This document shows positions 27,350 through 47,611 of a DNA stretch of 64,000 bases, in pieces. Position 1 is the first letter of the stretch, and every line of letters begins with the position of its first letter. The notes under the pieces are model-generated. The model made no database searches. It was not told the origin of the DNA and saw only the letters and a list, made by a program, of their open reading frames with translations. Origin of the DNA: an uncultured bacterium (GTDB lineage: Bacteria > Bipolaricaulota > Bipolaricaulia > UBA7950 > UBA9294); NCBI GenBank assembly GCA_903857865.1, contig CAIOGO010000017.1:32302-96301 (forward strand), written 5' to 3'. Both the position numbers and the translations under genes were made by a program.

Positions 27350-27967
27350 GTGGGGATCACGGAGTTCCTGGCAGCCGTCGGCACGCGGATGATGGAGGCG
27401 ACCGGCTATGCCGGCGTCTTCCTTCTCATGGTGGCCGAGAGCATGGTCCTGCCGGTGCCCAGCGAAGCCGTGATGCCGTTCGCGGGATTCCTCGTGGCGG
27501 AGGGTTCCATGTCGGCTGTCGGGGCGGTGGGGTTTGCCACCCTGGGCAGCCTCGTCGGGTCGCTCCTGTCCTACGCGATCGGGCGGTTCGGCGGCCGGCC
27601 GTTCATCACGAAGTACGGGAAGGTTCTTCTCCTCGACGCGAGCGACCTCGAGCGCACGGACGGTTTCTTCTGCCGGCGCGGGGCGATCACGATCTTCGTC
27701 AGCCGCTTCATCCCCGTCATTCGCCACCTCATCTCCATCCCGGCGGGCATGGGCAGAATGAGACTCCTCCCGTTCTGCCTGTTCACCGTCGTCGGGGCGG
27801 CACTTTGGAACAGCTTCCTCACGTGGTGCGGATTCGCTCTTCGCGCGAACTGGGACGCCGTGCTGCGCTACGCCCGCCTGGTCGACGTCGGCGTCCTCGT
27901 CGTTCTCGCGGGCCTCGTGGCGCTATTCATGCTTCGCCACCTTCGAGTCCGCCGCCGGTTGGAGTAG
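27350..27967 (+). CDS. DedA family membrane protein
   Basis: A 205-residue DedA/SNARE-associated-type membrane protein, thought to move lipid carriers across the membrane. The re-entrant loop motif near residue 30 (ESMVLPVPSEAVMPFAGFL) and the conserved SRFIPVIRHLISIPAGMGRM segment with the key arginines are present, plus four to five membrane helices. GTG at 27350 is chosen because TTGGAGGG lies five bases upstream. Its 3' end overlaps the convergent hydrogenase protease gene by 41 bases. Confidence 0.88.
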   Translation: MGITEFLAAVGTRMMEATGYAGVFLLMVAESMVLPVPSEAVMPFAGFLVAEGSMSAVGAVGFATLGSLVGSLLSYAIGRFGGRPFITKYGKVLLLDASDLERTDGFFCRRGAITIFVSRFIPVIRHLISIPAGMGRMRLLPFCLFTVVGAALWNSFLTWCGFALRANWDAVLRYARLVDVGVLVVLAGLVALFMLRHLRVRRRLE

Positions 27968-28511
27968 AGGGGCAAGTCCTTCGCTGAGTCCCGCTACTCT
28001 CGCAGAGGGCCCGCGCTAGGGTGGCCACCGTCTCGGTCACGGCGGCAGCGACTTCCTCGGAGAGGCCTTCACCGAACGCGACGACTCTGGGTTGCAGTCC
28101 GAGGAAGAGGACTCGACAGCCCAGTTCTTGCTTGAGGTAGTCGGCGATTACGGCCAACGGGAGCGTGTGCGTGCTCGACGACATTCCGCCGATCTCCACG
28201 GAATCGACGAGGCGGACGGCGCCCGGTGTCTCTCCGAATTCGGCGGCATCGACGAAGATCACGTGGGACGGGAGAGCCCGGCGGATCTCTCCGGTGACGT
28301 TCTCCGGTGCCGTATCCCCTAGAAGGACGAGCACGCTCGGAAGGTCGAGCTTGCGGAGCTCCTCGGCAATGCGGAGCCCCGCTGCATCATCCGAACGAAG
28401 ACTGGATCCGACTCCGACGACGACGACGCGGTTAGGCGTTCGCGGTGTCGGAGTCTCCGGATTCGGGCGCAGGGCCTCCCTCAGGGCCTGCGACAGGCTT
28501 TGGAGCGGCAT
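27927..28511 (-). CDS. [NiFe]-hydrogenase maturation protease (HycI family)
   Basis: A 194-residue peptidase that trims the C-terminal tail of the hydrogenase large subunit after nickel insertion. VVVGVGSSLRSDDAAG carries the first metal-binding Asp, FVDAAEFG the second, and SSTHTLPL the histidine. It is the last gene of the hydrogenase operon. The ATG at 28511 gives an 80-base overlap with the ferredoxin gene; no later ATG, GTG or TTG lies before the conserved part. Its presence agrees with the cleavable tail on the large subunit at 29814-31040. Confidence 0.9.
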   Translation of the reverse strand: MPLQSLSQALREALRPNPETPTPRTPNRVVVVGVGSSLRSDDAAGLRIAEELRKLDLPSVLVLLGDTAPENVTGEIRRALPSHVIFVDAAEFGETPGAVRLVDSVEIGGMSSSTHTLPLAVIADYLKQELGCRVLFLGLQPRVVAFGEGLSEEVAAAVTETVATLARALCESSGTQRRTCPSTPTGGGLEGGEA

Positions 28512-28872
28512 GGTAGACGACCTTCAGGGCCTTCCGATCGAACGCGGCGAGCTCGAAGTCCTTGGTCAGTTCGATCGTCTTCTTCGGACAGATGTCGGCG
28601 CATTGGCCGCAGTAGACGCATCGACCGAGGTCGATCGTGGCTTCGAATTCCTTCTCCCCGATCTTGTCGATCTCGATCGCGCCGGACGGACAATTGCGCA
28701 CGCACATCTTGCAGCCGATGCAGTTCTCCGAGTGGACGACGGGCCGGCCGCGGAAACGGTCGGGCATGACCCACTTCACGAACGGATAGCGGGTCGTTGC
28801 CGGGTGCCGGAAAAGGGACCGCAAGAGAGAGGGGAGCATTCTTCCCGGGCGTCTCCAGGGTGTCCTCGCCAT
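28432..28872 (-). CDS. Hydrogenase ferredoxin-like subunit (NuoI/EchF type)
   Basis: A 146-residue protein with two [4Fe-4S] motifs, CIGCKMCVRNCP (C51, C54, C57, C61) and CVYCGQCADICP (C85, C88, C91, C95). In complex I and group 4 hydrogenases this subunit wires the electron donor to the small subunit. The N-terminal amphipathic segment likely lies along the membrane. The tail after residue 110 is proline-rich and poorly conserved. It starts three bases after the NuoH-like gene. Confidence 0.92.
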   Translation of the reverse strand: MARTPWRRPGRMLPSLLRSLFRHPATTRYPFVKWVMPDRFRGRPVVHSENCIGCKMCVRNCPSGAIEIDKIGEKEFEATIDLGRCVYCGQCADICPKKTIELTKDFELAAFDRKALKVVYHAAPKPVAGPEGGPAPESGDSDTANA

Positions 28873-28875
28873 GGC

Positions 28876-29817
28876 CTAGATCAGCTCCCTGACGACGAGG
28901 TTGATGAGCACTTGGAGGAAGGCGATCGGCGCGACGACCTTCCAACAGAAGTCGATCATCTGATCGATGCGCAAGCGGGCGAACAGGGTTCGCAGGAGCG
29001 CGAGGATTCCGAGGATGAGGAGCACCTTCCCGAGATAGACGAGGAAGCCGAGCCATGGAGCGAGTCCAAGCCCAAACGGGAGGAACACGGCCGCGATGAG
29101 CGAGGCGCCGACGATGGCCTCGCAATTGATGGCCAGCCGGAAGAACGCCAATCGCCGCCCGCTGTACTCGGTAAAACTCCCGGCGACGATTTCAGTCTCC
29201 GCCTCGGGCGTGTCGAACGGTACCCGTTCGAGCTTTCCTAAGAGCGAAACGAGCGCCACGCCGAAGCCGATGAGGTTCACCAGCCACAGCCACGGGTGGG
29301 CGGCGTAGTACGCCGCGATCTTGGAAATCGACCACGAGTTGGCGAGGAGCGACGGTGCCAGCAACGCGACGAAGAGCGGGATCTCGTACGCGAACACCTG
29401 GGTGATCGCGCGAACCGCGCCGAGCGTGGCGAACACGGAGCGCGAGTACCAGCCGCCGAGGAAGAAGCAGACCGTCGGGATGAGGAGAAGGTACAGGACA
29501 ACGATCAGGTCGCCGTCAAACGGGAAGAGGGACGTCGCGCTCCAAAGAGGAATGTAGAGCGACGCCGCGACCACGGCGGCAAGCGCGAAAACGGGCGCCA
29601 GGTTGAACGTGGTGCGGTCGGCCTCCTCGGGGATCACGTCTTCTTTGCCGAAGAGCTTGAGCACGTCGGCCACCGGCTGGAACCACGGCGGACCTTGGCG
29701 ATTCTGGAAACGCGCGTAGAGCTTGCGGTCCACGAACTCGCCGGCAAGTCCGAGGGCGACGAGAAACAGGAATCCGGGGAAGACCAGGATGTTCACCACC
29801 GCAGTTCCGACCGTCAT
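28876..29817 (-). CDS. Hydrogenase membrane subunit (NuoH/EchB type)
   Basis: A 313-residue protein with about eight membrane helices. ARFQNRQGPPWFQPVADVLKL is the typical start loop of NuoH; the FDTPEAETEIVAGSFTEYSG loop and acidic residues that form the entry of the proton path are kept. It anchors the peripheral hydrogenase arm. The ATG overlaps the large-subunit stop (ATGA). It is the universal membrane subunit of complex I and group 4 hydrogenases. Confidence 0.93.
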   Translation of the reverse strand: MTVGTAVVNILVFPGFLFLVALGLAGEFVDRKLYARFQNRQGPPWFQPVADVLKLFGKEDVIPEEADRTTFNLAPVFALAAVVAASLYIPLWSATSLFPFDGDLIVVLYLLLIPTVCFFLGGWYSRSVFATLGAVRAITQVFAYEIPLFVALLAPSLLANSWSISKIAAYYAAHPWLWLVNLIGFGVALVSLLGKLERVPFDTPEAETEIVAGSFTEYSGRRLAFFRLAINCEAIVGASLIAAVFLPFGLGLAPWLGFLVYLGKVLLILGILALLRTLFARLRIDQMIDFCWKVVAPIAFLQVLINLVVRELI

Positions 29818-31040
29818 GCCGTAGAGTCTCCTCGCATCTTGATCTTCGACACATCCACGCCGCGCTCGCGGTACCAGCGAACGCCGTACTGGACAAGCTC
29901 TTCCCAACCCATCGTCCTTGCATCCTCGCGAGTCTTCACGGCGATCATGCGGTCCGTGCACGAGAAGCACGGATCGATCGCCGCGACGACGATCGGCAGA
30001 TCGGCGAGGTAGCCGTCCTCCAGCATCTTGGCCACCGACTGCGTGTTGGCCAGTGTGGGTGCCCGAATCTTCACGCGTTCCGGCTTGTCGGTCCCGTTGG
30101 CCTTCACGTAATGCACATCCTCGCCGCGTGGCGCCTCGTAGCGGCTCACGGCCTCGCCGGCCGGGATCCGAAGCGGCGCCTTCACCGTGATGGGGCCCTC
30201 GGGCATCTGCCTCACCAGCTGTCGGATCATCGAGTAGGTCTGCATGAGCTCGCCAAGGCGAACGACCGCGCGACCGAACACATCGCAGCGATCGTCGGTG
30301 ACAACCTGGAATTCCAGCTCGCCGTACGCGGCGTACGGATCGTCCCGCCGAGTGTCCCGATCGACGCCCGATGCCCGAGCCGTCGGTCCGACGGCTCCGA
30401 GCAGGACCGCGTCCTCCTTGGACAGCTTCCCGACGCCCGACAAGCGCTGGGCCAACGTCTCTTCGGTCATGGCCAGTTCGATGTAGTACTTCGTTCGCTC
30501 TTCCAGAGCATCCACAACCTTGAGAATACGCGGGAGCTGTTCCGGGGAGATGTCCCGACGCACCCCGCCGACGGTGTTGATCCCGTAGTTGACCCGATTC
30601 CCGGTGAGCTCCGCGAACAGATCCATGACCTGTTCGCGATCGCGCCACGTGTACATGAGCAGCGTGTCGAATCCGATCTCGTGCCCGGCCACGCCGAGCC
30701 ACAAGAGGTGGCTGTGGACGCGCTCGAGTTCGGCGATCAGCGTGCGGATGTACGCCGCGCGGTGGGGCAGCTCAAGCCCGGCGATCTCCTCCACCGCCTG
30801 AACGAACGCCGTGGAGTGCGAGTGCGAGCAAATGCCGCACACGCGTTCGACGAGGTAGACGTCCTGAACGTACGTGCGTTCTTCGCACCCCTTCTCAATC
30901 CCTCGATGGTTGTAGCCCAACCGCAGGGTGACGGCGCTGATCTTCTCTCCCTGCAGATCGACCATGAAGCTCTCCGGCTCCTTGAGAGCCGGGTGTTGGG
31001 GGCCAATAGGGACGCGAACGATCCTCTCTTTGTCAGGCAT
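29814..31040 (-). CDS. Group 4 [NiFe]-hydrogenase large subunit (NuoD-like)
   Basis: A 408-residue catalytic subunit. Unlike NuoD of complex I, it keeps both nickel-binding pairs: RVCGICSHSH near the N-terminus (C68, C71) and DPCFSCTDR near the C-terminus (C358, C361). A 44-residue tail follows R364, the expected cleavage point for the HycI-type protease encoded in the same operon. This supports a working [NiFe] site that makes or uses H2. The electron partner is probably ferredoxin, as no NADH-binding NuoEFG genes are present. Confidence 0.94.
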   Translation of the reverse strand: MPDKERIVRVPIGPQHPALKEPESFMVDLQGEKISAVTLRLGYNHRGIEKGCEERTYVQDVYLVERVCGICSHSHSTAFVQAVEEIAGLELPHRAAYIRTLIAELERVHSHLLWLGVAGHEIGFDTLLMYTWRDREQVMDLFAELTGNRVNYGINTVGGVRRDISPEQLPRILKVVDALEERTKYYIELAMTEETLAQRLSGVGKLSKEDAVLLGAVGPTARASGVDRDTRRDDPYAAYGELEFQVVTDDRCDVFGRAVVRLGELMQTYSMIRQLVRQMPEGPITVKAPLRIPAGEAVSRYEAPRGEDVHYVKANGTDKPERVKIRAPTLANTQSVAKMLEDGYLADLPIVVAAIDPCFSCTDRMIAVKTREDARTMGWEELVQYGVRWYRERGVDVSKIKMRGDSTA

Positions 31041-31497
31041 CCTGAGCTCCCTTCTCCCTTGGTCTCCAATCCTTCAACAGGGGATGCTCGCCCTTCGGCC
31101 AGTTGTCGGGAAGCGGATAGCGCCTTCCCTCAGGCAGTCCCGCGATTCGCGCACCGAACAGGTCCATCAGTTCCCGTTCGTAGATGCCCCCTCCGAGGAA
31201 GGTCGGCGTGATCGTCTGCATCGACTCTCCCTTCGTGCACCGCGTCTTGACGTTCGCCATCAGGCCGCCGTTGCGAGCCAGATGGTAGATGAATCCCAGG
31301 TCGGCTCCTTCGTCGAGCCCGGTGATCATGCAGAGGTTGGAGAACTCCAAGTCCTTGACGAGAAAGTGGAAGACTCCGGCGAACGCCTGGCGATCCACCT
31401 CAACCCACACGCGCGTCGCACGCTGAACGTTCACCCGGCCGGTGAGGGACGGGAACTTGGCTACCAGCTTCGCAACGACCGTTTCAGCGTCGCTCAT
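31033..31497 (-). CDS. Hydrogenase subunit, NuoC-like
   Basis: A 154-residue protein of the 30-kDa (NuoC/EchD) type. The conserved ERELMDLFGARIAGLPEGRRYPLPDNWP segment near the C-terminus is recognisable in part. It packs against the large subunit and has no cofactor. The ATG at 31497 overlaps the small-subunit stop (ATGA), and its end overlaps the large-subunit start by 8 bases. A longer in-frame start is not supported. Confidence 0.88.
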   Translation of the reverse strand: MSDAETVVAKLVAKFPSLTGRVNVQRATRVWVEVDRQAFAGVFHFLVKDLEFSNLCMITGLDEGADLGFIYHLARNGGLMANVKTRCTKGESMQTITPTFLGGGIYERELMDLFGARIAGLPEGRRYPLPDNWPKGEHPLLKDWRPREKGAQDA

Positions 31498-31931
31498 TTT
31501 CCCACCTCCAGCGTCTTCAGGAGCTTCGCGAACCCATCGATGATCGCTTGAGGGCTCGCCGGGCACCCGGGAATGTAGGCCGCAACAGGAATCACCTGAT
31601 CGATCCCGCTCTTCACATTGTAGAGTCCATTGAAGACACCGCCGCTCGTCGCGCAGGAGCCCACGGCCACCACGAGCTTCGGCTCAGGGACTTGCTCGTA
31701 GATTCGGACGAGGCGAGATTCGATCTGCCGCGTCACCGGCCCAGAGCACGCCATGATGTCGCAGTGTCGAGGAGTCCCTTTGAGGAGCACGCCGAAGCGC
31801 TCCAGGTCAAAGCGAGGCGTCAGGGTGGCGATAATCTCGATGTCGCACGCGTTGCACGCGCCGGTGTTGAAGTGCAGAATCCACGGCGACTTCCTCTGTC
31901 CCCAACGGACCATTCGACGAGCGACATTCAT
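31494..31931 (-). CDS. Hydrogenase small subunit (NuoB-like)
   Basis: A 145-residue subunit that holds the proximal [4Fe-4S] cluster next to the nickel site. The ligands are C26 and C29 in GACNACDIE, C93 in GSCATSGG and C123 in PGCPASP. GGAGG lies 11 bases before the ATG at 31931; a GTG four codons earlier overlaps the site and is less likely. Length is typical for group 4 small subunits and NuoB. Confidence 0.92.
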   Translation of the reverse strand: MNVARRMVRWGQRKSPWILHFNTGACNACDIEIIATLTPRFDLERFGVLLKGTPRHCDIMACSGPVTRQIESRLVRIYEQVPEPKLVVAVGSCATSGGVFNGLYNVKSGIDQVIPVAAYIPGCPASPQAIIDGFAKLLKTLEVGK

Positions 31932-31939
31932 GCGGGGAG

Positions 31940-32278
31940 TCACCTCCGGAAGAGAATATAGAGAGCCAAGAGTGCTCCAAGCACGTAGAGGACGGCGAAT
32001 GCAGCGCTCCCCGCAATACGAGCCGGCGACGTGGCGACGATCAGCGTGACGACGTGCAAGATGGTGAAGAAGAAGGCGAACGGGAAGAACTGGCTGTAGT
32101 CCGGCTGGACGCGGTGGTTCTCGATGTCTTCGCCGCCGGCGTACGGCTTGTCGAGCGCGCCCCGCGGACCCTTCCTGCGAAATCCGAGGGGGCTCGCGGC
32201 GCTCGACAGCGCCCAGACGAGGAAGACGAGAAGCGTGAGGGCGACGGGTGGAACTAAGAGAAGAGCCGCTACCGACAT
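31940..32278 (-). CDS. NuoA-like membrane subunit
   Basis: A 112-residue protein with three membrane helices. Between helices 1 and 2 it has KPYAGGEDIENHRVQPDYS, followed by FFPFAFFFTILHVVTLIV, the pattern of the NuoA loop and second helix, though the cysteine of NuoA PYECG is alanine-glycine here. Finding a NuoA-like subunit next to a true hydrogenase large subunit is noteworthy. It lies between the NuoK-like and small-subunit genes with gaps of a few bases. Confidence 0.75.
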   Translation of the reverse strand: MSVAALLLVPPVALTLLVFLVWALSSAASPLGFRRKGPRGALDKPYAGGEDIENHRVQPDYSQFFPFAFFFTILHVVTLIVATSPARIAGSAAFAVLYVLGALLALYILFRR

Positions 32279-32281
32279 CGC

Positions 32282-32602
32282 CTACCCCTTCATGCTCCGC
32301 GTGTTTTCAACGTCCAAGGAGTCGTGCTTTCGGAAGAACCCGAGAATGACTCCCGCGACGACCACGACGACGACGACCTCAATGACGATCACCGTGATGA
32401 CCAGGGCTTGGGCAAGCGCCATCCTTCCGCTCAGGTAGCCGGCCACGATCAGGAAGAACGTCACTGACTTCATCAGGATCTCGAGGCCGATGAGAATCCG
32501 GACGAGGTTGTGGGTGGCCAGCATGCACCAGAGCCCGTCGACGAGCAGGAGAGCGAAGAAGGTGAAGTAGAGCCAGAACGACTGCGGGATCTCAATCGTC
32601 AT
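32282..32602 (-). CDS. NuoK/MrpC-like membrane subunit
   Basis: A 106-residue protein with three membrane helices. NLVRILIGLEILMKS carries the conserved glutamate of NuoK helix 2 and VITVIVIEVVV the glutamate of helix 3, both part of the proton path. It overlaps the end of the NuoJ-like gene by 11 bases. Confidence 0.88.
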   Translation of the reverse strand: MTIEIPQSFWLYFTFFALLLVDGLWCMLATHNLVRILIGLEILMKSVTFFLIVAGYLSGRMALAQALVITVIVIEVVVVVVVAGVILGFFRKHDSLDVENTRSMKG

Positions 32603-33086
32603 GCTTTGCCTCCTTCCTGAACAGGACCAGCACGCCGAACACGCCGGCGAGGAGGATGAGGATCTGCCCGAACAGATCGAGCTGCCGCAGACTCCACAGC
32701 ACCGTGCGGACGTCGCCGTCTCCCGCGGGCACGCGGAGGGCGATCTCGACCGGCGCGTGAACGAAGGAGAGAGCCACCCCGACCGCGATGAGGACGAGAG
32801 GAAGCGGCCAGTAGCGCCGCAGGCGGCTCCGGCGGTTGGCGAGCGCCTCCTTGAGCGGCCGCCGCTGGGTGAGGCTTGTGACGCTCACCAGGACGACCGA
32901 AATCAAGCCGGCGCACACCGAGAGCTCCATCACGGCCGCCAACGTAGCGCCCATGCTGAACATCACGACGGCGAGCAGGGCGCTCGTGAGCGCCAAGCCG
33001 AGAGCCGCTCGCAAGAGGGCCGTCGTCATCGACGCCCACAGCGCAGCGAGAACGAGCACCACGAGAAGGAGAGTCATCCAGATCAT
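32592..33086 (-). CDS. NuoJ-like membrane subunit
   Basis: A 164-residue protein with about five membrane helices. AVMELSVCAGLISVVLVSVTSL resembles the conserved helix of NuoJ and of the related subunits of group 4 hydrogenases. The last helix (about 140-160) follows a periplasmic-type loop with VHAPVEIALRVPAG. The ATG at 33086 overlaps the previous stop (ATGA); the longer open frame upstream is the shadow of the antiporter gene. Confidence 0.75.
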   Translation of the reverse strand: MIWMTLLLVVLVLAALWASMTTALLRAALGLALTSALLAVVMFSMGATLAAVMELSVCAGLISVVLVSVTSLTQRRPLKEALANRRSRLRRYWPLPLVLIAVGVALSFVHAPVEIALRVPAGDGDVRTVLWSLRQLDLFGQILILLAGVFGVLVLFRKEAKHDD

Positions 33087-34513
33087 GCTCCGCCTCCCAA
33101 GAGAACCCGCAGCGCGAAGGGGAACCCAACCCCGAGCGCGATGGTGATCAACGCGAGCGCCACGACCGGGACGAGGAGCCCCGGCGCCGCTTCCTTTACG
33201 TGGGCCCACTTCGGATGGGTCTTCCCGAAGAACACCCGCCGCTGGAGCGAGAGGAAGTAGGCGAGGGTGACGAGACTCGCCAAGATGGCGACAGCGGCAA
33301 ACCCGTACTCCTTTGCGTTCCACAGGGCGAGGACGATCAGGAGCTTGCTCCAGAAGCCGGCAAGCGGGGGAAGTCCGGCGATCGACAGCGTCGCCACGGC
33401 GGTCGTTCCAGCCGTCACCGGCATGCGCGCTCCGATTCCGCCCATCTCATCCATGTTCAGAGTCCCGAGCTGTTCCTCGATGGCGGCCGCGTTCGCGAAG
33501 AGCTGGGACTTGGAGATCGCGTGATTGAAGAAGTGAAGGCCCGCCGCCAGGATTCCGAGGTTCAGGTCTCCTCCCAGGGCGAGGACGATGTAGCCCATCT
33601 GACTTACGCTCGAATAAGCGAGCATTCGCTTCATGTTGGACTGACCCAGTGCGAGGAAGGCGCCGACCACGATCGTAAGGGCGCCGACGACGAGGAGAAT
33701 CTCGCGCCCCGGCAGCGCGCTCCCCATCGTCGACGACACGATTCGAAGGAGCGCGAAGATGCCCGATGCCTTCGTGACAATCCCCGCCATGAACACCGAT
33801 ACCGGCGCCGGGGCCGCCGTATAGGCGTCCGCCAGCCAGCCGTGGAAGGGAACCAAGCCCCCCTTGACGAACAGCCCGCACAGGAAGAGAGCCATGGCGA
33901 CCCAGGTCAGTGAGCCCGGCGCCCCGAGCGCAGTCTTCACCGCATCGAACGTGATGTCGCCGGCCGAGAGAAGGAAGAACCCGATCGACGTGAGCATCAG
34001 CACGCTGGCGACAACCGACAGGATGATGTACTTCCACGCGCCCTCGAAGACCTGCTCGCCGCGGCTGGCCGCACCGCTGCGGCTCGCCGTGATGAGGATG
34101 AACGTCGCGATGGCGGTCACTTCGACGAACACGTAGAGGGAGAACAGGTCGCGCACCATGGCAATCCCGTTGATCCCGACGAGCGCCACGAGGACGAGAT
34201 TGGCGAAGAAGAACTTCTCGCCGGCGTCCTTCAGCGTTCGGCGTGCAACGAGGAGGGCGACCATTCCGACGATTCCCGCGCACAGCATGGCCAGGCCGCT
34301 CAAGTGATCGGCGGCGAGGCGAAAGCCGAAGACGCTCTCGAGCCATGTGAAGGCCGAGCTGTCGATGGAGGAGAACCGCTCGACGAACGCGGCCGCAGCT
34401 TCCAGGCCAAGGACTCCGAAGGACACCCACAAGGCCGCGCCGCGAGCGCGCTTCGGGAGAAGATTCAGGACGACGACGGCCAGGAACGGAACGAGGAGAA
34501 GGAGATGACTCAT
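33083..34513 (-). CDS. Antiporter-like hydrogenase subunit (NuoN/MrpD type)
   Basis: A 476-residue protein with about 14 membrane helices of the proton-conducting antiporter family. The helix with SLYVFVEVTAIATFIL holds the key glutamate; GLVPFHGWLADAYTAAPAPV and QSNMKRMLAYSSVSQMGYI hold the lysines and the broken helix. It is one of three such subunits, which in complex I would each move an ion. The start is in an ATGA overlap with the NuoL-like gene. Confidence 0.9.
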   Translation of the reverse strand: MSHLLLLVPFLAVVVLNLLPKRARGAALWVSFGVLGLEAAAAFVERFSSIDSSAFTWLESVFGFRLAADHLSGLAMLCAGIVGMVALLVARRTLKDAGEKFFFANLVLVALVGINGIAMVRDLFSLYVFVEVTAIATFILITASRSGAASRGEQVFEGAWKYIILSVVASVLMLTSIGFFLLSAGDITFDAVKTALGAPGSLTWVAMALFLCGLFVKGGLVPFHGWLADAYTAAPAPVSVFMAGIVTKASGIFALLRIVSSTMGSALPGREILLVVGALTIVVGAFLALGQSNMKRMLAYSSVSQMGYIVLALGGDLNLGILAAGLHFFNHAISKSQLFANAAAIEEQLGTLNMDEMGGIGARMPVTAGTTAVATLSIAGLPPLAGFWSKLLIVLALWNAKEYGFAAVAILASLVTLAYFLSLQRRVFFGKTHPKWAHVKEAAPGLLVPVVALALITIALGVGFPFALRVLLGGGA

Positions 34514-36366
34514 CGTCCGCCCCCCACCATAGCGAGCACCGCGAGGAGCACGGCGACGGCACCGGCAAGCGCCCACCAGACGTACCGGTTGACATTCCCA
34601 TTGTGGACTCGCCGCAAGACGCTGGAGGTGACGAGTGCCGTCTTCGACGCGAGCGTGCTGTAGATCCAATCGATCGCCCGATCGATGCCGTAGAGGGTTC
34701 TAGCAGCAGCTTTTGCCATCCAGTTGAGCATTCGATACGGATCGAGCGCGCCCGTCGCTTGGAACGCGTACGCCGAAGACAGGCCGGGAGCGTGATGGAT
34801 GTGATCGACGGCTCCGATGCCCTTGCCCGATCGGCGTACGCCGAACGCATGGTTGAGCACGGCGAGCGCGAGCACGCCAATCGTCAAGCCGACGAGCATC
34901 ATGTTCGTCGGGAAGCCGGCGAATGTCTCGTGCCCATGCTTCATGACCGCGCCGACGGCCGGTTGAATGAGTCGCTCAAGCGGCAGGCTGTTGGCGACGC
35001 CGAACAGGACGCACAGCCCAGCGAGAAGAATCATCGGGACGAGCATCGGCCAAGGCGCTTCCTTCACCTTGCGCTTTGCGTTCGACGGCTTGCCGAAGAA
35101 GGCGGCGTGACCCAGCTTCAGGAAGGAGGCCGCGGTGAAGAACGAGCCGACGAGGGCGACGGCGTAGAAGATCCAGCCCCGTTCAAGGGCCCCGTCGTAG
35201 ATGAGTTCCTTGGAGAAGAACCCGTTGAACGGCGGCACTCCCGAGATCGACGCGGCCGCCACGAGGAAGCAGATCATCGTGACGGGCATGCTGCGCCCCA
35301 GTCCGCCAAGCTGGTGAAGATCCGTCGTGCCCGTCTCCTTCTCGACCGCGCCGCCGGTCAAGAAGAGCGATGACTTGTAGATCGCGTTGTTCACCATGTG
35401 GAAGAGGCCGCCGACAATGCCGACCGGCAGAGCCGTCCCAATTCCGAGAATCATGTAGCCGACCTGGCTGATCGCGTGGTACGCCAAGAGGCGCTTGTAG
35501 TCCTTCTGGACGAGGGCCATCATGACCGCAAGCAGGATCGTGGCGGCTCCGATCGACATGAGGACGGGCGAGACCCACGACTCCGGCGTGAGGACGAAGA
35601 AGTCAAGCGACACCCGCGCCAGGAAGTAGATGCCGAGGAGCTTTTCCAGGCTCCCTGGCAGGAGCGCCATGAACGGCGTGGGCGCATCGATTGCCGCGTC
35701 CGGGATCCAGCTGTGGAACGGCATCGCTCCCGACTTCCCCATTGCCCCGATCATGAGGAGGAGGAAGGCGACGGCGCCGAGGCCGTCGAGAGGGAGACGG
35801 ATGGCCGACATCGACAGCGTCCCCGCAAGATGACCCGTGAGCATCACGCCGAGCATCAACGCGAGGTCCGTCAACCCGACGATGACGAACGCCTTAATGG
35901 CCGTCGCGAACGGTTTCGTCTTGCCCGCGACGATCATCGCGAACAGCGTCAGCAACAAACCTTCCCAGAACACGAGGAAGAGGACGAGATTGTCCGCAAG
36001 GACCGCGCCGGCCGACAGAGCCACCGTGAACAAGACCCACGCGTGGAATCGGCGCGACGACGGCGCCTTGGCCATCGAGACGACCAAGTACATCGACACG
36101 AGGAACCCGAAGCTGGCGATGGCGAGGAGAATGAACGCGCTGAACCGTGACAGCTTGAACGCGAACTCGATCCCAAACCCTATCCAGGGCCAGGCAAAGG
36201 CGAAGTCGCTCGGGAAGATGTAGATCGCGAGCCCAAGCTCAAACGCGCACGCAAGCACGGCGAGCGCGCTCGTTGCCCACGGCGTTCGACGGCTTGGCAA
36301 GAGCAGCGCCAGGAGGCCGGCGGCCGCGGGGACGGCGATGGCAAGAAGGAGCACGGTCGGCGTCAT
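34510..36366 (-). CDS. Antiporter-like hydrogenase subunit (NuoL type)
   Basis: A 618-residue protein, the longest of the three antiporter-like subunits. FWEGLLLTLFAMI carries the key glutamate, MPFHSWIPDAAIDAPTPFMALL and QKDYKRLLAYHAISQVGYM follow. After the 14-helix core it has a C-terminal extension (from about residue 480) with a helical stretch ending in a final membrane helix, which recalls the lateral helix of NuoL. That helix would run along the membrane arm. ATGA overlaps link it to both neighbours. Confidence 0.9.
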   Translation of the reverse strand: MTPTVLLLAIAVPAAAGLLALLLPSRRTPWATSALAVLACAFELGLAIYIFPSDFAFAWPWIGFGIEFAFKLSRFSAFILLAIASFGFLVSMYLVVSMAKAPSSRRFHAWVLFTVALSAGAVLADNLVLFLVFWEGLLLTLFAMIVAGKTKPFATAIKAFVIVGLTDLALMLGVMLTGHLAGTLSMSAIRLPLDGLGAVAFLLLMIGAMGKSGAMPFHSWIPDAAIDAPTPFMALLPGSLEKLLGIYFLARVSLDFFVLTPESWVSPVLMSIGAATILLAVMMALVQKDYKRLLAYHAISQVGYMILGIGTALPVGIVGGLFHMVNNAIYKSSLFLTGGAVEKETGTTDLHQLGGLGRSMPVTMICFLVAAASISGVPPFNGFFSKELIYDGALERGWIFYAVALVGSFFTAASFLKLGHAAFFGKPSNAKRKVKEAPWPMLVPMILLAGLCVLFGVANSLPLERLIQPAVGAVMKHGHETFAGFPTNMMLVGLTIGVLALAVLNHAFGVRRSGKGIGAVDHIHHAPGLSSAYAFQATGALDPYRMLNWMAKAAARTLYGIDRAIDWIYSTLASKTALVTSSVLRRVHNGNVNRYVWWALAGAVAVLLAVLAMVGGGR

Positions 36367-37796
36367 CCCGTCACCCCCAGCATCTGGGAAATGGCCACCC
36401 GCGCCAGCTCAGACGGCCAACCGACGGCAAGGCCCCCGATGAGAGAAAGCGCCGCGAGAAGCACCACGCAGGCCACCATGAGCCGCGATTTTTCAGCGGC
36501 CGGCGTCCCCTTCGGCTCGCCGAGGAAGACCTTGGTGAACAGGCGGAAGAGGTAAAGGATCGTCAACAGGGCACCGACGAAGAAGACGGTAGCGAGGACG
36601 ATCTCGTTCGCTGACACCGCGGCCGAGAGCACCATGTACTTCCCGAAGAAGCCGCCGAACGGCGGAATGCCCATGACCGAGAACGAGCACAGGAGAAACG
36701 CTGCCGCCGTCCACGGCATGGTACGGATCAGGCCGCCAAGCTTCGTGATGTCCTTCGTGCCGGCGTTTTGCTCGACGATGCCGGCGGACAAGAAGAGGCC
36801 GGCCTTGGCGAGGCCGTGCATCAGGATGTAGAGGAGCGCTCCGGCCGCGCCGAGCGGGTTCCCCATGGCGAGCCCCAGGAAGATGAAGCCGATCTGGCTC
36901 ACCGTCGAATAGGCAACGATTCGCTTGAAGTCCGTCTCGACGAGAGCGGCTCCCGCGCTGACGAGCGCGCTTGCGCCGGCGAGCGAGGCAACGATCGTCC
37001 GTAGGGCCTCGACGAACGCGAACGTCGCGAGGAACAGCCTCGCGAACACGTACACACCGATCTTGACCAGGACGGCCGCGTGCAGCAGGGCCGTGACCGG
37101 CGCCGGAGCGACGCCCGCGTCAGGCAACCACGTCTGGAACGGCAGCGTGGCGGACTTGGACAACAGCCCGATGAGCAGGAGCGCGGAGATGCCGAGCGGA
37201 AGAGCCGTGCCCTTCATGGCCGTGAGGTCGAACGTGCCCGTCAGCCCATACACGGCGAGGATTCCGACCAGCATAACGAGAGCGCCGAGCGCCGTGATGA
37301 GGAAAGCCTTGTCCGCTTTGAGCACGTCGGCCTTCCCGCGATAGAACCCGATCAAGCGCCAGCTCGCGATCCCCGTGATCTCCCAGAAGACGAAGAGGTA
37401 GATGAGGTTCGTCGAGAAGACGAGGCCCATCATCGCGCCGAGGAAGACCACGGCCATCACGTAGTACTCGTTCTGGTTCTCGTAGTGGCTGATGTAGTCG
37501 AACGAGAAGAGCATGATGACGGCGCCAACGAGGGACGAGACGATGGCCATGAACACGGCGAGCGCGTCGGCGGTGAGGATGAGCGAAAGCCCCAAGGGTC
37601 CGATGATGCTGAACGAGACGATGTCTCCCCGCAAGGCGCCCGACACCAGCGCGAGCGAGCAGCCGAGAGACACAAGCACCATCGCCAAAGCAGACACGTC
37701 GCGCAAACGCCTCGACACGCTTCCGAGAAGTGGAAGTAGGAACGCCCCCGCTAGGGGGGCAAACACCGCGACGAGAAGCACGACTCCTTCTCTCAT
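36363..37796 (-). CDS. Antiporter-like hydrogenase subunit (NuoM/MrpD type)
   Basis: A 477-residue antiporter-family protein and the first gene of the hydrogenase operon. FVFWEITGIASWRLIGFYRG carries the key glutamate, and LPFQTWLPDAGVAPAPVTALL and ETDFKRIVAYSTVSQIGFI give the lysine-bearing helices. Its end overlaps the NuoL-like gene (ATGA). A promoter-like sequence lies about 75 bases upstream. Whether the ion pumped is H+ or Na+ cannot be told. Confidence 0.9.
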   Translation of the reverse strand: MREGVVLLVAVFAPLAGAFLLPLLGSVSRRLRDVSALAMVLVSLGCSLALVSGALRGDIVSFSIIGPLGLSLILTADALAVFMAIVSSLVGAVIMLFSFDYISHYENQNEYYVMAVVFLGAMMGLVFSTNLIYLFVFWEITGIASWRLIGFYRGKADVLKADKAFLITALGALVMLVGILAVYGLTGTFDLTAMKGTALPLGISALLLIGLLSKSATLPFQTWLPDAGVAPAPVTALLHAAVLVKIGVYVFARLFLATFAFVEALRTIVASLAGASALVSAGAALVETDFKRIVAYSTVSQIGFIFLGLAMGNPLGAAGALLYILMHGLAKAGLFLSAGIVEQNAGTKDITKLGGLIRTMPWTAAAFLLCSFSVMGIPPFGGFFGKYMVLSAAVSANEIVLATVFFVGALLTILYLFRLFTKVFLGEPKGTPAAEKSRLMVACVVLLAALSLIGGLAVGWPSELARVAISQMLGVTG

Positions 37797-38676: not shown

Positions 38677-39054
38677 CTACCCCGGACGATTGAGAGCCTC
38701 GCGGGCCTGCTCAAGCTTGTCAACGGCTAGGACGAGTTTGTTCCGTCCCACGGCGGCGTACACTGACTCAACGTTGACGTCTGCCGCGGCCAGTCGGTCG
38801 AGCACATCGGCAAGTTCCCGCGGGGTGCTTCCGACATCCACGACGAGGACGTCCTTTTCCTCGAACGACACCCCGAGGGAACGGAGCACCCGGCGCGCCT
38901 TCTCCGGGTCGTCGGCGACGAGGCGAATGAGTCCCTCCCCGCGGCGCCCCATCCCGGCGGCCACCTCGATTCCGACCCCCACGTCAGCGAGCGCTGCAGC
39001 CACTCTCGCGAAGCTGCCGGGCTGATTGCGCACGGTGAGTTGGAACTCCCTCAT
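38677..39054 (-). CDS. Tandem ACT-domain protein
   Basis: A 125-residue protein made of two ACT-like modules. Module one is FQLTVRNQPGSFARVAAALADVG, module two starts at VLVVDVGSTPRELADVLDRLA. ACT domains bind amino acids and regulate enzymes; stand-alone pairs are usually small regulators. The ligand and target are unknown. It is convergent with the DUF169 gene and divergent from kdp. Confidence 0.8.
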   Translation of the reverse strand: MREFQLTVRNQPGSFARVAAALADVGVGIEVAAGMGRRGEGLIRLVADDPEKARRVLRSLGVSFEEKDVLVVDVGSTPRELADVLDRLAAADVNVESVYAAVGRNKLVLAVDKLEQAREALNRPG

Positions 39055-39197: not shown

Positions 39198-39366
39198 CTT
39201 GTCGCGGCGGCCGCGAGGCGCAGCCACGGCGCAGGAGGTGCGTCTCCGGATGGCCGGGGAGATCTCGGGCGCGTGTCCCTAGGGGCCGCGACCCGTGTGT
39301 AGAGAGCCCCGAAGCTGGCACCCGAACTTCCATGTTCGGCAGAACCTTCACCACCCTCGAGAAGCT
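39198..39366 (+). other. kdp leader region
   Basis: About 170 bases lie between the likely transcription start and kdpA. They contain several inverted words, including CCGAAC-TTCCAT-GTTCGG at 39324-39341 and GC-rich pairs near 39255-39292. I do not recognise a known riboswitch, although potassium-uptake genes in other bacteria are often under c-di-AMP riboswitches. No open reading frame with a site is seen. Confidence 0.35.
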
Positions 39367-41070
39367 ATGACGAAGGCCGTTCTTTCCACGCTTGAACTTC
39401 TTCTTCTCCTCTTTCCGGTCGCCCTGCTCCTCGGGGGCTACATGGCGCGTGTCTTCCGGGGAGAACGCACGTTCCTCTCCTCAGGTCTTCGACCGATGGA
39501 GAAGCTCGTCTATCGTCTCTGTCGGGTCGATGAAGCCCGGGAGATGTCGGGCCGTTCGTACGCCCTCTGCGTCGTCGCTACCACGCTCGGCGGTTGTCTC
39601 GTTCTCCTCCTGATTCAGCTACTTCAGGGAATCCTCCCACTTAATCCTCAAGGGCTGCGCGGCGTTCGCTGGGACACGGCGCTGAACACGGCCATCTCGT
39701 TCGGCACGAACACCAACTGGCAGGCCTATGCCGGCGAGACCACGATGAGCCCGCTCACGCAGATGCTGGGGCTCGCAGTTCAGAATTTCCTCTCGGCCGC
39801 GGTCGGCATCGCCGTTGCCGTAGCCATGATCCGCGGTTTCGCTCGGAAAGAAGCCAAGACAGTCGGTAACTTTTGGGTCGACCTCGTGCGCTCTGTGATC
39901 TACATCCTCCTGCCGCTTGCGCTCGTTCTCGCCGTGGTCCTGGTATCTCAGGGCGTCGTGCAGACACTGCGCGCTCCTGTCGAGGCCCGGACGCTTGAGA
40001 GTGCAAGGCAAGTCATCCCGATGGGTCCCGTTGCCTCTCAGGAAGCCATCAAGGAGCTCGGGACGAACGGCGGCGGCTACTACAACGCGAACTCTGCGCA
40101 CCCGTTCGAGAACCCCAATGGTCTCACGAACCTGCTCGAGAACTTCGCTCTGCTCTTGATTCCGACCGCGCTTGTCTTCTCGTTCGGGATCATGGTTGGA
40201 AACCGCCGGCAAGGGCGGGCGCTCCTCGCGGCCATGCTCGCCTTGTTCGCGCTCGGGCTGGGGTTGTCCTTCTGGGCCGAGCTCTCCGGGAATCCGCTGC
40301 TCGCAGACGCGGGGGTTTTGGCAGGAGCGAACTTCGAGGGAAAAGAGGTGCGATTAGGGATTCCAGCGTCGGCGTTGTGGGCAGAGTCGACGACCGCCAC
40401 GTCTACGGGTGCCGTCAACTCCGCCCACGACAGCGACCTTCCGCTCGTCGGGCTCGTGCAGCTCTTCAACATGGGAATCGGCGAAGTGGTATTCGGCGGC
40501 GTCGGCGTCGGCCTCATCGGGATGCTCTTCTATGTCGTCCTCGCGATGTTCGTCGCGGGGCTGATGATCGGGCGCACGCCGGAGTTCCTGGGCAAGAAGC
40601 TCGGCGCTCGCGAGATGATCATGGCTGTGATCGGGATCCTGCTTCCTCCCGTCATCCTCCTCTCGGGCGCCGCGATCGCTCTGCTGCTTCCCGCCGGACT
40701 AGCCGGGCTTGGCAATCCCTCCGCTCATGGCCTCTCGGAGATCCTCTACGCGTACACGTCCGCGGTGGGCAACAACGGGTCCGCGATGGCCGGCCTCTCG
40801 GCGAACACCCCGTTCTACAACCTCACCTTAGGCCTTGTCATGCTGATCGGCCGATTCGCTACGCTCCTGCCAGGTCTCGCGATAGGCGCCGCCGTCGCGC
40901 GCAAGCGGACGGTGCCGTCGAGCATTGCAACATTCCCGACAACGGGGCCGCTGTTCGTTGTCGTGCTCGTCGGAGTCATTCTCCTTGTTGGTGCCCTGAC
41001 CTACTTCCCGGCGTTCTCGCTCGGTCCGATTCTCGAGCACCTGTTTCTCGGGGCGGGGAGGCTGGCATGA
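39367..41070 (+). CDS. kdpA: Potassium-transporting ATPase, K+-binding subunit KdpA
   Basis: A 567-residue channel-like subunit of the high-affinity Kdp pump. The four selectivity-filter loops are visible: [27 protein letters not shown] (the longest), [11 protein letters not shown] and AVGNNGSA. About ten membrane helices are present. The ribosome-binding site before the ATG is weak (GAGAAG). Its stop overlaps the kdpB start (ATGA). Confidence 0.97.
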
Positions 41071-43121
41071 CGCGACGGAGTACAGGCGCGGCGGAGCGCC
41101 GGTCGATGTTCGATCGGGCCCTCGTGATCCAGGCTGTGCGGGGCTCGTTTCGAAAGTTGGATCCGCGACAGCTTCTGCGCAGCCCCGTCATGCTGGTCAC
41201 CGAGGCCGGGGCGGCACTCACGACGATCTTGACCGTCGTCTCAATCGTCCAAGCACGACCTTTCTCGTTCGAGCTGCAAGTGAGCCTGTGGCTCTGGTTC
41301 ACCGTCTTGTTTGCGAACTTCGCTGAGGCGCTGGCCGAGGCGCAGGGTTCGGCGCGCGCCGAGTCCCTGAGGCGATCGCGCAAGGACCTCGCCGCGCGGC
41401 GACAACTCGCCGACGGCCGGACAGAGCAAGTATCGGCCGCCACATTGCGAAAAGGCGACGCCGTCGTGGTTGGCGATGGAGAAACTATCCCCGGCGACGG
41501 AGAGATCGTCGAGGGGACGGCTCTCGTGGACGAGTCGGCGATCACCGGCGAGTCAGCGCCCGTCGTGCGCGAGGCGGGCGGCGACCGTAGCGGAGTGACG
41601 GGAGGCTCGCGGGTTCTCTCCGGCCAAATCAAGGTGCGGATCACCGCCAACCCTGGCGAAACCTTCCTCGACCACATGATCGCCATGGTCGAGGGAGCCC
41701 GTCGACAGATGACGCCGAACGAGATTGCGCTTCAGATCCTGCTTGTGGGACTGACCGTGCTATTCGTCGTGGTCGTCTTGAGCGTCCCGGCGATGGCACA
41801 CTACATGGGAGTGGCGACCACCGTTCCCGTCCTTGTATCGCTTCTCGTGTGCCTCATGCCGACGACGATCGGCGGGCTTCTCCCCGCGATTGGCATAGCC
41901 GGGATGGATCGGCTCGTGCAGCGTAACGTCATCGCGCTGAGCGGCCGGGCGGTCGAGGCTTCGGGCGACGTGGACATCGTCGTGCTTGACAAGACAGGGA
42001 CGATCACGCTCGGAAACCGTATGGCGACCGAACTCCTGCCTGCCCCCGGCGTCTCCCGTGAGGAGCTGATCGACGCCGCCCTGTTGTCCTCGCTTCCCGA
42101 CGAGACCCCGGAAGGTCGAAGCATCGTTGTCCTCTGCAAGAATGAGCTCGGCATCAGGGGCGGAGACATCCGTGCTCCCGGCGACGCTGTCTTCATTCCG
42201 TTCTCCGCGATGACGCGAATGAGCGGAGTGGATGTCGGCATGCGACGGATACGCAAGGGAGCCATCGACGCCATGGAGGGACTCGTTCGCCTGTTGGGCG
42301 GCTACTTCCCCGAGCCGGTAAAGGCGCAAGTTGAGGCCGTCGCGCGCAACGGCGACACGCCGATGGTGGTGACCGACGGTTCGCGCGTGCTCGGCGTCGT
42401 CCGCCTGAAGGACGTCCTTAAGCAGGGAATCAAGGCTCGACTTGCGGAACTTCGACACATGGGCATTCGCTCCGTCATGATCACCGGCGACAACCCGCTT
42501 ACCGCCGCCTCGATTGCCGCTGAAGCGGGGCTCGACGACTTCATCGCCCAAGCGAAGCCGGACGCCAAACTCAGCCTCATTCGCAAGTACCAAAGTGACG
42601 GCCACTTGGTGGCTATGATCGGCGATGGAACGAACGACGCCCCCGCGCTCGCGCAGGCAGATGTTGCGGTGGCAATGAACGCCGGGACCCAGGCGGCGCG
42701 TGAGGCGGCGAACATGATCGACCTCGACTCGAACCCCACGAAGCTTCTCGACATCGTGGAAGTGGGGAAGGAAATCCTCATCACGCGCGGGGCACTGACG
42801 ACGTTCAGCGTGGCCAACGACATGGCGAAGTACTTCGCTATTGTTCCCGCGATCTTCGCGGCGGCCTACCCGGAGCTCGGAGTGCTGAACGTCATGCGGC
42901 TCTCGACGCCTGCAAGCGCCATCCTTGCTGCCGTGGTCTTCAATGCGCTCATCATCCCGGCGCTGATTCCGCTCGCGCTCCGCGGCGTACGCTTCCGGGC
43001 ACGCTCGGCCTCGGCCGTCTTGCGCTGGAACCTCCTCGTCTACGGAATGGGAGGACTCCTCCTCCCGTTCCTCGGCATCAAGTTGTTGGACATGTTCCTC
43101 GTCGCGTTGCGCCTCGTGTGA
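41067..43121 (+). CDS. kdpB: Potassium-transporting ATPase, ATP-binding subunit KdpB
   Basis: A 684-residue P-type ATPase. The phosphorylation motif [11 protein letters not shown], the actuator TGES in [12 protein letters not shown], and the hinge [15 protein letters not shown] are all present. It energises K+ uptake through KdpA. The start overlaps kdpA by four bases, and kdpC follows ten bases after its stop. Confidence 0.97.
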
Positions 43122-43131
43122 GGGGAGGACT

Positions 43132-43695
43132 ATGAAAGAGATTCGGACTGCGTTTCTCGTCATCCTCGTCTTCTCCCTTCTGCTCGGTGTCGTCTATCCC
43201 CTCCTTTTGACGGGCATCGGGCAGCTCGTCTTCCCTTGGCGCGCGAACGGAAGCCTGGTGTCGGTCGGCGGACGCGTCGTCGGATCGGAACTGCTCGGGC
43301 AGTCGTTCTCATCCGCGCGCTACTTCCACGGGCGACCTTCGCCATCGGACTACGATGCGATGGCGTCGGGCGCGTCAAATCTCGGTCCCTCGAATCGCGC
43401 CCTCCTCCTGGTGGTGCAAGAGAGGGTGGACCGAATCCGTTCTAAGAACGGTCTCCCGTCCGGGACGCCGATTCCTGCAGATCTCGTCCTGTCATCCGCG
43501 AGCGGCCTCGATCCGGAGATCAGTATCGAGAGCGCGTTGCTGCAGGTCGACCGAGTCGCCACCGCGCGCGGGCTGGATGTCGCCGTCGTCCGCAGCCTGG
43601 TGGAGAGAATGGTGGTCGGCCCTTTCCTCGCTGCGTTCGGCGACCGCCGCGTGAACGTGCTCCGGCTCAATCTTGCCTTGGATGGGTTGACCTGA
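43132..43695 (+). CDS. kdpC: Potassium-transporting ATPase subunit KdpC
   Basis: A 187-residue subunit with one N-terminal membrane helix (about 9-30) and an outside domain. YFHGRPSPSDYDAMASGASNLGP and LTSASGLDPEISIESALLQ-type sequence are typical of the family. It stabilises the KdpAB complex. A GGGGAGG site precedes the ATG. Confidence 0.95.
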   Translation: MKEIRTAFLVILVFSLLLGVVYPLLLTGIGQLVFPWRANGSLVSVGGRVVGSELLGQSFSSARYFHGRPSPSDYDAMASGASNLGPSNRALLLVVQERVDRIRSKNGLPSGTPIPADLVLSSASGLDPEISIESALLQVDRVATARGLDVAVVRSLVERMVVGPFLAAFGDRRVNVLRLNLALDGLT

Positions 43696-43757
43696 GATGC
43701 TGTCGCGGCGCGCCTTACGCGCGGACAGGGTGGGGCAGGCCGTAGGCGAGGGAGACC

Positions 43758-46399: not shown

Positions 46400-47611
46400 A
46401 TGTTCGACACGGGCAGCACGGCGTTCATGCTGGTTGCGACGAGCCTTGTCATGTTGATGACCCCGGGGCTCGCGTTCTTCTACGGGGGGCTGGTCGGGAG
46501 GAAGAACGTCCTGACCATCATGACGCAGAGCTTCTTCTCGATGGGCTGGACCACCCTCATCTGGGTCGCCGTCGGATATTCGCTCTGCTTCAGCGGGGAT
46601 GTGGGTGGCATCACCGGAGACCTAAGGCATGCTTTCCTGACCGGCATCACGGCGGCTACGCCCTCGCCGCTCAACCCGGGGATCCCGCTCTTCGTCTTCA
46701 TCGCCTACCAGATGATGTTCGCCATCATCACTCCCGCTCTCATCACGGGCGCCTTCGCCAACCGCGTGAACTTCAAGGCGTACATCCTCTTCCTCACGTT
46801 CTGGCTCCTCTGCGTCTACTTCCCCCTGACGCACATGATTTGGGGCGGCGGCATGTTGCAGCAGTGGGGAGTCCTCGACTTCGCTGGCGGGATGGTCGTC
46901 CACGCCAGCGCGGGTTTTGGAGCGCTGGCCTCAGTTCTGTTCATTGGTCGACGGAGGGTCGGGGATCGTGGGCCGCACAGCATCCCGCTCGTCGCTCTGG
47001 GGACAGGGCTACTCTGGTTCGGGTGGTACGGGTTCAACGCCGGGAGCGAGTTCGCTGCGGACAAGATCACGGCGCTTGCTTTCCTCAACACCGACATCGC
47101 GGCCTCCATTGCCGCAGTGACGTGGATCACCATTGCCTGGGTCGTGGAGAAGAAGCCGAAGTTCGTCGGCCTCCTCACGGGATCCGTCGCTGGACTTGCG
47201 ACCATCACGCCCTGTGCCGGGTACGTGACGCCTCAGATCGCCGTCCTCATCGGCGCCATCGCCGCCAGCCTCTGCTACGTTGCTGTGTACCTGAAGAACA
47301 GGCTGCATCTGGATGACGCCCTTGACGTATTCGGCGTCCACGGAGTCGGCGGCGTCGTAGGATGCCTGTGCCTGGGGCTCTTCGCGAGCCTCGGAGTCAA
47401 TCCCGCTGGCGTCAACGGTCTGATTCACAGCGGGAACGCCACGTTCTTCCTGAAACAGCTCTCGGCGACCGCCGGCGTGGCCGTCTATGCCTTCCTCTTC
47501 AGTTACGCCATGCTCTGGCTGATCAATCGGGTCACCCCGGTCCGCGTGAGCGAGGAGGTTGAGAACGGCGGTCTGGATGCGGACCTTCACGGAGAGGAGG
47601 CGTACATCTGA
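46400..47611 (+). CDS. amtB: Ammonium transporter
   Basis: A 403-residue Amt/Mep/Rh transporter with 11 helices. The twin histidines are in VVHASAGF and FGVHGVGG, and the phenylalanine gate is in QMMFAIITPALITGAFANR. No signal peptide extension is obvious. AAGGGGGAGATGAG precedes the ATG. No glnK gene is adjacent. A TATAAT word at 46284-46289 may be its -10 box, without a clear -35; the rest of 46154-46399 shows only a small inverted repeat (CAGGATCG/CGATCCTG). Confidence 0.95.
   Translation: MFDTGSTAFMLVATSLVMLMTPGLAFFYGGLVGRKNVLTIMTQSFFSMGWTTLIWVAVGYSLCFSGDVGGITGDLRHAFLTGITAATPSPLNPGIPLFVFIAYQMMFAIITPALITGAFANRVNFKAYILFLTFWLLCVYFPLTHMIWGGGMLQQWGVLDFAGGMVVHASAGFGALASVLFIGRRRVGDRGPHSIPLVALGTGLLWFGWYGFNAGSEFAADKITALAFLNTDIAASIAAVTWITIAWVVEKKPKFVGLLTGSVAGLATITPCAGYVTPQIAVLIGAIAASLCYVAVYLKNRLHLDDALDVFGVHGVGGVVGCLCLGLFASLGVNPAGVNGLIHSGNATFFLKQLSATAGVAVYAFLFSYAMLWLINRVTPVRVSEEVENGGLDADLHGEEAYI

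Follow-up and report, generated by a model that had tools for sequence, protein, structure and literature searches.

A probable group 4g [NiFe] hydrogenase operon predicted to encode a complete complex I-type membrane arm, including a NuoA homologue

A hydrogenase operon with counterparts of complex I subunits

Could a membrane [NiFe] hydrogenase be built on the whole membrane arm of complex I? The question is raised by a 64,000-nucleotide stretch of DNA (the window; positions 32,302 to 96,301 of contig CAIOGO010000017.1, assembly GCA_903857865.1) from an uncultured member of the Bipolaricaulota, represented by a metagenome-assembled genome (MAG) of 2.24 Mb and 91% completeness. Twelve genes, overlapping or almost abutting their neighbours, run on the minus strand from 37796 to 27927 in the order L1-L2-L3-J-K-A-B-C-D-H-I-protease. 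An initial annotation, whose coordinates and strand were right, had read them as a complex I-like hydrogenase in which every membrane and Q-module subunit of complex I has a counterpart. Gene starts were corrected for J (33086), L3 (34513), H (29817) and C (31497). Searches of the window proteins against Pfam named every product but A, and A was placed through its family, so the list of counterparts held, but L1–L3 did not correspond one-to-one to NuoL, M and N. The NuoEFG module of 14-subunit complex I was not found within the operon, as had also been annotated. The system is probably a ferredoxin-dependent membrane [NiFe] hydrogenase (HydDB group 4g) on a complete complex I-type arm that pumps ions.

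Catalytic module

The catalytic large subunit D (29814–31040, 408 aa; Pfam 49kDa, 2e-70) carried both Ni-binding CxxC pairs, RVCGIC and DPCFSC, in agreement with the initial annotation, and RxCGIC and DPCFSC were kept in all 87 open reading frames (ORFs) for D in the clade. DPCFSCTDR was followed by a median of 47 further residues in 86/86 clade D proteins. This motif with a C-terminal extension is the form cut by HycI-type proteases, and the last gene of the operon encoded the HycI-type maturation protease that had been annotated (27927–28511, 194 aa; Pfam HycI, 4.1e-15). The MbhL chain in the PDB terminates at the R of the CTDR motif. Glu21, a key residue for proton reduction in the membrane-bound hydrogenase (MBH) that is missing from the related MBS complex (PMC7684303), was kept in D within GPQHPALKEP.

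The [4Fe-4S] small subunit B (31494–31943, 149 aa; Pfam Oxidored_q6, 2.2e-29) had a hydrogenase-type ACNACD motif, present in 70 relatives. The NuoI-like subunit I (28432–28872, 146 aa) had two Fer4 motifs for two [4Fe-4S] clusters and is the probable entry point of ferredoxin, and C (31033–31497, 154 aa; Pfam Complex1_30kDa, 3.1e-18) resembled NuoC, the 30-kDa subunit. The host genome held one D homologue, that of the window, and also contained hypD. By these motifs the enzyme is a Ni-site group 4 [NiFe] hydrogenase, with predicted activity.

The same genes could be read as an 11-subunit complex I reducing quinone, in which the cysteines are a relic: the subunit list equals nuoABCDHIJKLMN of Desulfitobacterium (PMC11238625), and NuoD/FpoD were the first NCBIfam models matched by D. 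We consider this very improbable, since none of dozens of divergent genomes has lost any of the four Ni ligands, the cleavage site or the protease. Moreover, the segment GPQHPALKEP stands where complex I has GPQHPSTHG, B has the hydrogenase CxxC where complex I has a tandem CC, and window D has neither the complex I quinone-site motif nor a site free of Ni ligands.

Subunit A is a NuoA/ND3 homologue

The window A protein (31940–32278, 112 aa, three transmembrane helices (TM)) gave no Pfam or NCBIfam match at E ≤ 1 when searched on its own, and searches of the host genome with PF00507 (NuoA/ND3) and NF053600 (MbhI) were also negative. The view that A is not a NuoA homologue, drawn from the single-sequence search, was overturned once a family alignment (window A and 24 relatives, 25 members) matched NuoA. 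PF00507 was matched by 20 of the 25 members (best 8.3e-7), and when the A-family profile was compared with all PDB chains, the top six were ND3/NuoA chains, matched weakly (best E 0.0098). In hhalign profile-profile comparison the A family aligned with NuoA at 95.9% (E 6e-9), and the 103 aligned columns took in all three helices; the controls J, K, NuoJ and NuoK scored 0.2–9% against the A family. Three helices were seen by hydropathy in 71/73 A members, like NuoA. Most members had YACGE or YSCGE as their ND3 loop motif; the Bipolaricaulota clade, the window protein included, had YAGGE.

The other candidate was MbhI of MBH, since the NCBIfam MbhI model matched 12/25 members (best 0.0022). This identity was ruled out: the profile-profile alignment of the A family with MbhI (66%) spanned 47 columns, TM1 and the loop only, and MbhI has two TM. 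Judged by profile and helix content, A is a true NuoA/ND3 homologue at the family level, and its build follows NuoA rather than MbhI. The NuoA assignment of the initial annotation was thus borne out for the family and not for the window protein alone.

Remaining membrane subunits

The NuoJ-like J (32592–33086, 164 aa; Pfam Oxidored_q3, 2.4e-6, under its cut-off) had five TM like E. coli NuoJ, and the NuoK-like K (32282–32602, 106 aa; Pfam Oxidored_q2, 7.3e-17) had three like NuoK. By alignment K retained the TM2 Glu, and its TM3 Glu sat about one helical turn ahead of NuoK E72. The TM3 Glu stood in an MrpC-like context (ALVIT.IVIE), likewise in loci L077, L087 and L103. H (28876–29817, 313 aa; Pfam NADHdh, 1.9e-77), a NuoH-like membrane anchor, retained the conserved acidic (E-channel) region FDTPEAETEI in the alignment.

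Three antiporter-like subunits preceded J. L1 (36363–37796, 477 aa), L2 (34510–36366, 618 aa) and L3 (33083–34513, 476 aa) matched Pfam Proton_antipo_M at 4.8e-69, 2.5e-56 and 3.9e-58, respectively. The pump residues TM5 Glu, TM7 Lys and TM12 Lys were kept in all three (E139, K214 and K386 in L1; E135, K211 and K386 in L2; E131, K217 and K390 in L3), and the TM8 residue was His239 in L1, Lys242 in L2 and Lys248 in L3. The NCBIfam NuoL model aligned with residues 5–613 of the 618 residues of L2. In an AlphaFold model of L2 (pLDDT 81) a 45-residue helix (543–587, pLDDT ~64) was followed by the last TM (592–615), and the best PDB fold was complex I subunit L (NuoL, 8e9g_L, Z 43.3), aligned up to residue 590. 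L2 is therefore predicted to carry a NuoL-type C-terminal lateral helix and TM16.

In the antiporter tree L1 grouped with NuoL/HyfD (support 97/90), L2 adjoined that group and L3 lay elsewhere, which gave no support to a one-to-one orthology of L1–L3 with NuoL, M and N. In a Margulisiibacteriota genome (L072:3442-6531) L1 and L2 were fused in one 1030-aa ORF, with residues 24–471 corresponding to L1 and 446–1025 to L2, which fits the adjacency of the two subunits.

An MBH-type (group 4d) enzyme with an Mrp-like antiporter module has been assumed for the 4g enzymes of Antarctic Omnitrophota, for which an Mrp linkage was inferred (PMC8542988). Such an enzyme would suit the PDB ranking of D, in which MbhL (6cfw) came first (E 2e-101), HycE second and complex I third, and the fact that J and K also matched Mrp-type models. 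We disfavour it as improbable: A aligns with MbhI over TM1 and the loop only and the operon holds no MbhI, no MrpE-, F- or G-like genes were found within it, and the real MbhI-bearing MBH operons of sister Bipolaricaulota form a separate clade.

Phylogenetic placement

In the D tree the window clade (100/99) was separate from MBH (100/99), formate hydrogenlyase (FHL) and a fourth type. D thus lay outside the Hyc/Hyf (group 4a FHL) clade and outside the MBH (4d) clade. With the tree rooted on complex I, the window clade was sister to the union of MBH, FHL and the fourth type (86/84). The B tree, in which row L145 was disregarded (wrong frame, huge branch), agreed (98/94 and 95/90). The deep order is provisional, the groups compared with the window clade being MBH, FHL, the fourth type and complex I. 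Against Thermus and mycobacterial NuoD, clade D proteins scored 205–252 bits, MBH 117–182 and FHL 112–166, and another Bipolaricaulota type (L005) was equally close to complex I NuoD. On these scores window D is closer to complex I than the D of MBH or FHL.

Two further sets of D homologues were seen. Loci L144, L146 and L148, from other Bipolaricaulota and a Margulisiibacteriota genome, held another Ni-site group 4 type with the order FeS-H-B-C-D-antiporter(s), whose D was likewise near complex I (up to 263 bits). In the Hyf-like operons at loci L116/L151, L118 and L030, from the same or related genomes, the D homologues lacked the Ni ligands (Ehr-like).

Relation to known hydrogenases

A 4g membrane hydrogenase has been reported in Velamenicoccus archaeovorus (PMC10066038) and a 4g enzyme in Endomicrobium, where the group was called uncharacterised and presumably ferredoxin-dependent (PMC11257099). 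Both have the same operon as the window, with D 66–72% identical. Since this operon holds the only Ni-ligand D homologue in both genomes, the published 4g label should apply to it. The accessible parts of the two reports give the class call only and do not discuss subunit make-up or NuoA. HydDB describes 4g as a loose cluster whose function is unknown (PMC5037454), and the group has been called polyphyletic (PMC11291895). No published assignment of orthologues to groups 4b, 4c, 4e, 4f, 4h or 4i was met. The catalytic class is thus most probably one already catalogued and not new.

The nearest precedent for the complex I-type arm is a complex I-like [NiFe] hydrogenase with a lateral helix and two antiporters, described in Asgard archaea in 2024 (PMC11291895). 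It shares with the window enzyme membership of group 4, a full-length lateral helix on the L-like subunit, several antiporters and nearby ATP synthase genes. It differs in being archaeal, in having two antiporters plus the lateral helix and in being co-encoded with Hdr, and NuoA and NuoJ are not mentioned in its description (PMC11291895). The proposal of a close hydrogenase relative of complex I was thus partly supported: the D bit scores agree with it, but the class (4g) was already catalogued and a complex I-like hydrogenase had been described in Asgard archaea. B and D formed a clade of their own outside MBH and FHL, with orthologues in the same operon already published as 4g.

MBH (group 4d; Pyrococcus 6cfw and sister Bipolaricaulota) resembles the window enzyme in its ferredoxin coupling, Glu21 and NuoH-, B-, C- and I-like subunits, but has MbhI (two TM, with a lateral helix) in place of NuoA, and one pump plus an Mrp module. 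FHL/Hyf (group 4a) shares the [NiFe] site, the processed DPCxSCTDR and antiporter subunits, but its ND3 region is fused to HycC, it has no NuoA or NuoJ, and it forms a separate clade. Eleven-subunit complex I shares A, B, C, D, H, I, J, K and three antiporter-like subunits, one with a lateral helix, and the pump residues; compared with it, the window enzyme keeps the [NiFe] site, the protease and Glu21 and is without the quinone-site motif, and its L1–L3 are not in one-to-one relation with L, M and N.

In MBH the ND3 loop is represented by MbhI, and HycC and MbsH' carry it fused at the C-terminus (PMC7684303, PMC9474812). The earlier statement that most group 4 hydrogenases lack NuoA therefore stood for a stand-alone three-helix NuoA and not for the loop. 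A 2026 COG profile survey reported no proteins related to NuoA (PMC13399641). In the open-access literature we found no description of a NuoA- or ND3-like subunit in a hydrogenase, which is weak evidence of absence, and no earlier description of a full complex I-type membrane arm with a stand-alone three-helix NuoA in a hydrogenase.

Distribution and genomic context

A scan of GTDB genomes gave 80 loci with D 66–88% identical, from Omnitrophota, Bipolaricaulota, Margulisiibacteriota/Saganbacteria, Elusimicrobia (Endomicrobium), Phycisphaerales and other planctomycetes, Kiritimatiellae/Lentisphaerae/Verrucomicrobia, Spirochaetes, Riflebacteria and others. The nearest named relatives were Candidatus Bipolaricaulis STA_74 and another Bipolaricaulota MAG (D 86–88% identical). 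The gene order of the window was usual across the loci, and all twelve genes were present in 48 of them (in the stretches fetched). A was found between K and B in 70/70 loci holding both K and B. The comparison with relatives that had been proposed for the operon thus showed a cassette kept whole in ~80 genomes, which excludes chance. One carrier, V. archaeovorus (NZ_CP019384), has a closed genome, so the pattern is not an artefact of binning.

Among Bipolaricaulota the A gene was patchy (6/100 genomes, in three genera of one family). Many other members had an ordinary MBH with MbhI, and one genome (G014) held both. This patchiness, together with the ordinary MBH of sister Bipolaricaulota, suggests that the cassette was gained horizontally in this phylum.

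F-type ATP synthase genes lay downstream of the operon in 9–14 Omnitrophota loci (flanks at L034, L043, L049, L054, L055, L059, L062, L064, L070, L073, L085, L092, L097 and L105), and a membrane pyrophosphatase gene lay near it in 22 loci (Omnitrophota). The c-subunit of the neighbouring Omnitrophota ATP synthase read EALTIY, which is H+-like, with no Na+ signature. These neighbours support a role in ion-motive energy conservation and favour protons as the ion in Omnitrophota. In the window's host the ATP synthase c-subunit (G000:C10:271788-271979, L157) read FVETTAIYALL, with a Na+-like ETT..Y and without the Gln of Na+ rings. ExbB/ExbD-like genes flanked the operon in 13–14 loci.

Proposed function

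In the ferredoxin-dependent reading, electrons from reduced ferredoxin would pass through the two clusters of I and the cluster of B and arrive at the [NiFe] site of D, which would reduce protons to H2, mainly in the direction of H2 evolution. The redox change would be felt at the β1-β2 loop of D (Glu21) and relayed via the loops of A (the ND3 loop), B and H. The signal would then run along a charged axis, H-A-J-K, to L3, L1 and L2, which would pump ions, probably protons, with the lateral helix of L2 holding the three pumps together. The resulting ion gradient would feed ATP synthase. From A, the peripheral arm is predicted to sit as it does in complex I.

Several points weigh against this reading. 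The ND3-loop Cys is lost in the window's own A. The AlphaFold model of A alone was mediocre (pLDDT 74, pTM 0.42) and uninformative, and Foldseek found no fold match for it. Lastly, electron transfer from ferredoxin at about -500 mV to H2 yields, as an estimate from textbook potentials, ~20–40 kJ per mol H2. This is too little for four protons against the full proton-motive force, and thus implies fewer ions, very low H2 or reverse running; three large pumps on so small a redox span are an energetic puzzle.

The chief alternative is that the enzyme runs in reverse, although we judge this rather unlikely. Here an ion gradient would drive the reduction of ferredoxin by H2, as in Eha/Ehb of methanogens, and feed carbon fixation, with the large arm as an energy-input lever. 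By our own estimate several pump units suit endergonic ferredoxin reduction better than H2 evolution; parts of the Wood-Ljungdahl pathway are reported in V. archaeovorus and relatives (PMC10066038), and the pyrophosphatase genes in the 22 loci point the same way. Endomicrobium, which has the same operon, argues against it, being described as an obligate sugar fermenter that needs to dispose of reduced ferredoxin (PMC11257099).

Returning to ferredoxin-dependent H2 evolution with ion pumping, the arm may be joined via NuoA as in complex I, and not as in MBH/MBS. More tentatively than the reading itself, we suggest that this architecture arose at an H2-making site before quinone reduction and that the lineage would be the missing step between hydrogenases and complex I; this is conceivable but doubtful.

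Neighbouring genes and host genome

Between the operon and kdp genes lay a gene for a protein with an ACT-domain pair (38677–39054). The kdp genes (39295–45776) included KdpA (39295–41070) and a KdpD sensor (43758–45776), and beyond them lay AmtB (46400–47611) and a CitMHS/ArsB-type transporter (47747–49081).

The host genome showed no NuoEFG belonging to the membrane complex: its sole NuoF-family gene adjoins the large subunit of a soluble [NiFe] hydrogenase. At this locus (L162:6763-10489; host G000 contig C22, ~72.8–76.5 kb) a NuoF-like protein (Complex1_51K, NADH_4Fe-4S) was encoded near a NiFeSe_Hases large subunit. This second, soluble hydrogenase of the host is probably an NAD(P)-linked group 3 enzyme.

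Significance

With a three-helix NuoA, NuoJ, NuoK, three pumps and a lateral helix in a widespread hydrogenase, the origin of complex I architecture becomes directly testable. The distribution of the operon suggests that H2 metabolism in many anaerobic candidate phyla relies on an ion pump bigger than the Mrp-linked MBH that is usually invoked, and the enzyme may reveal how the form of complex I came about.

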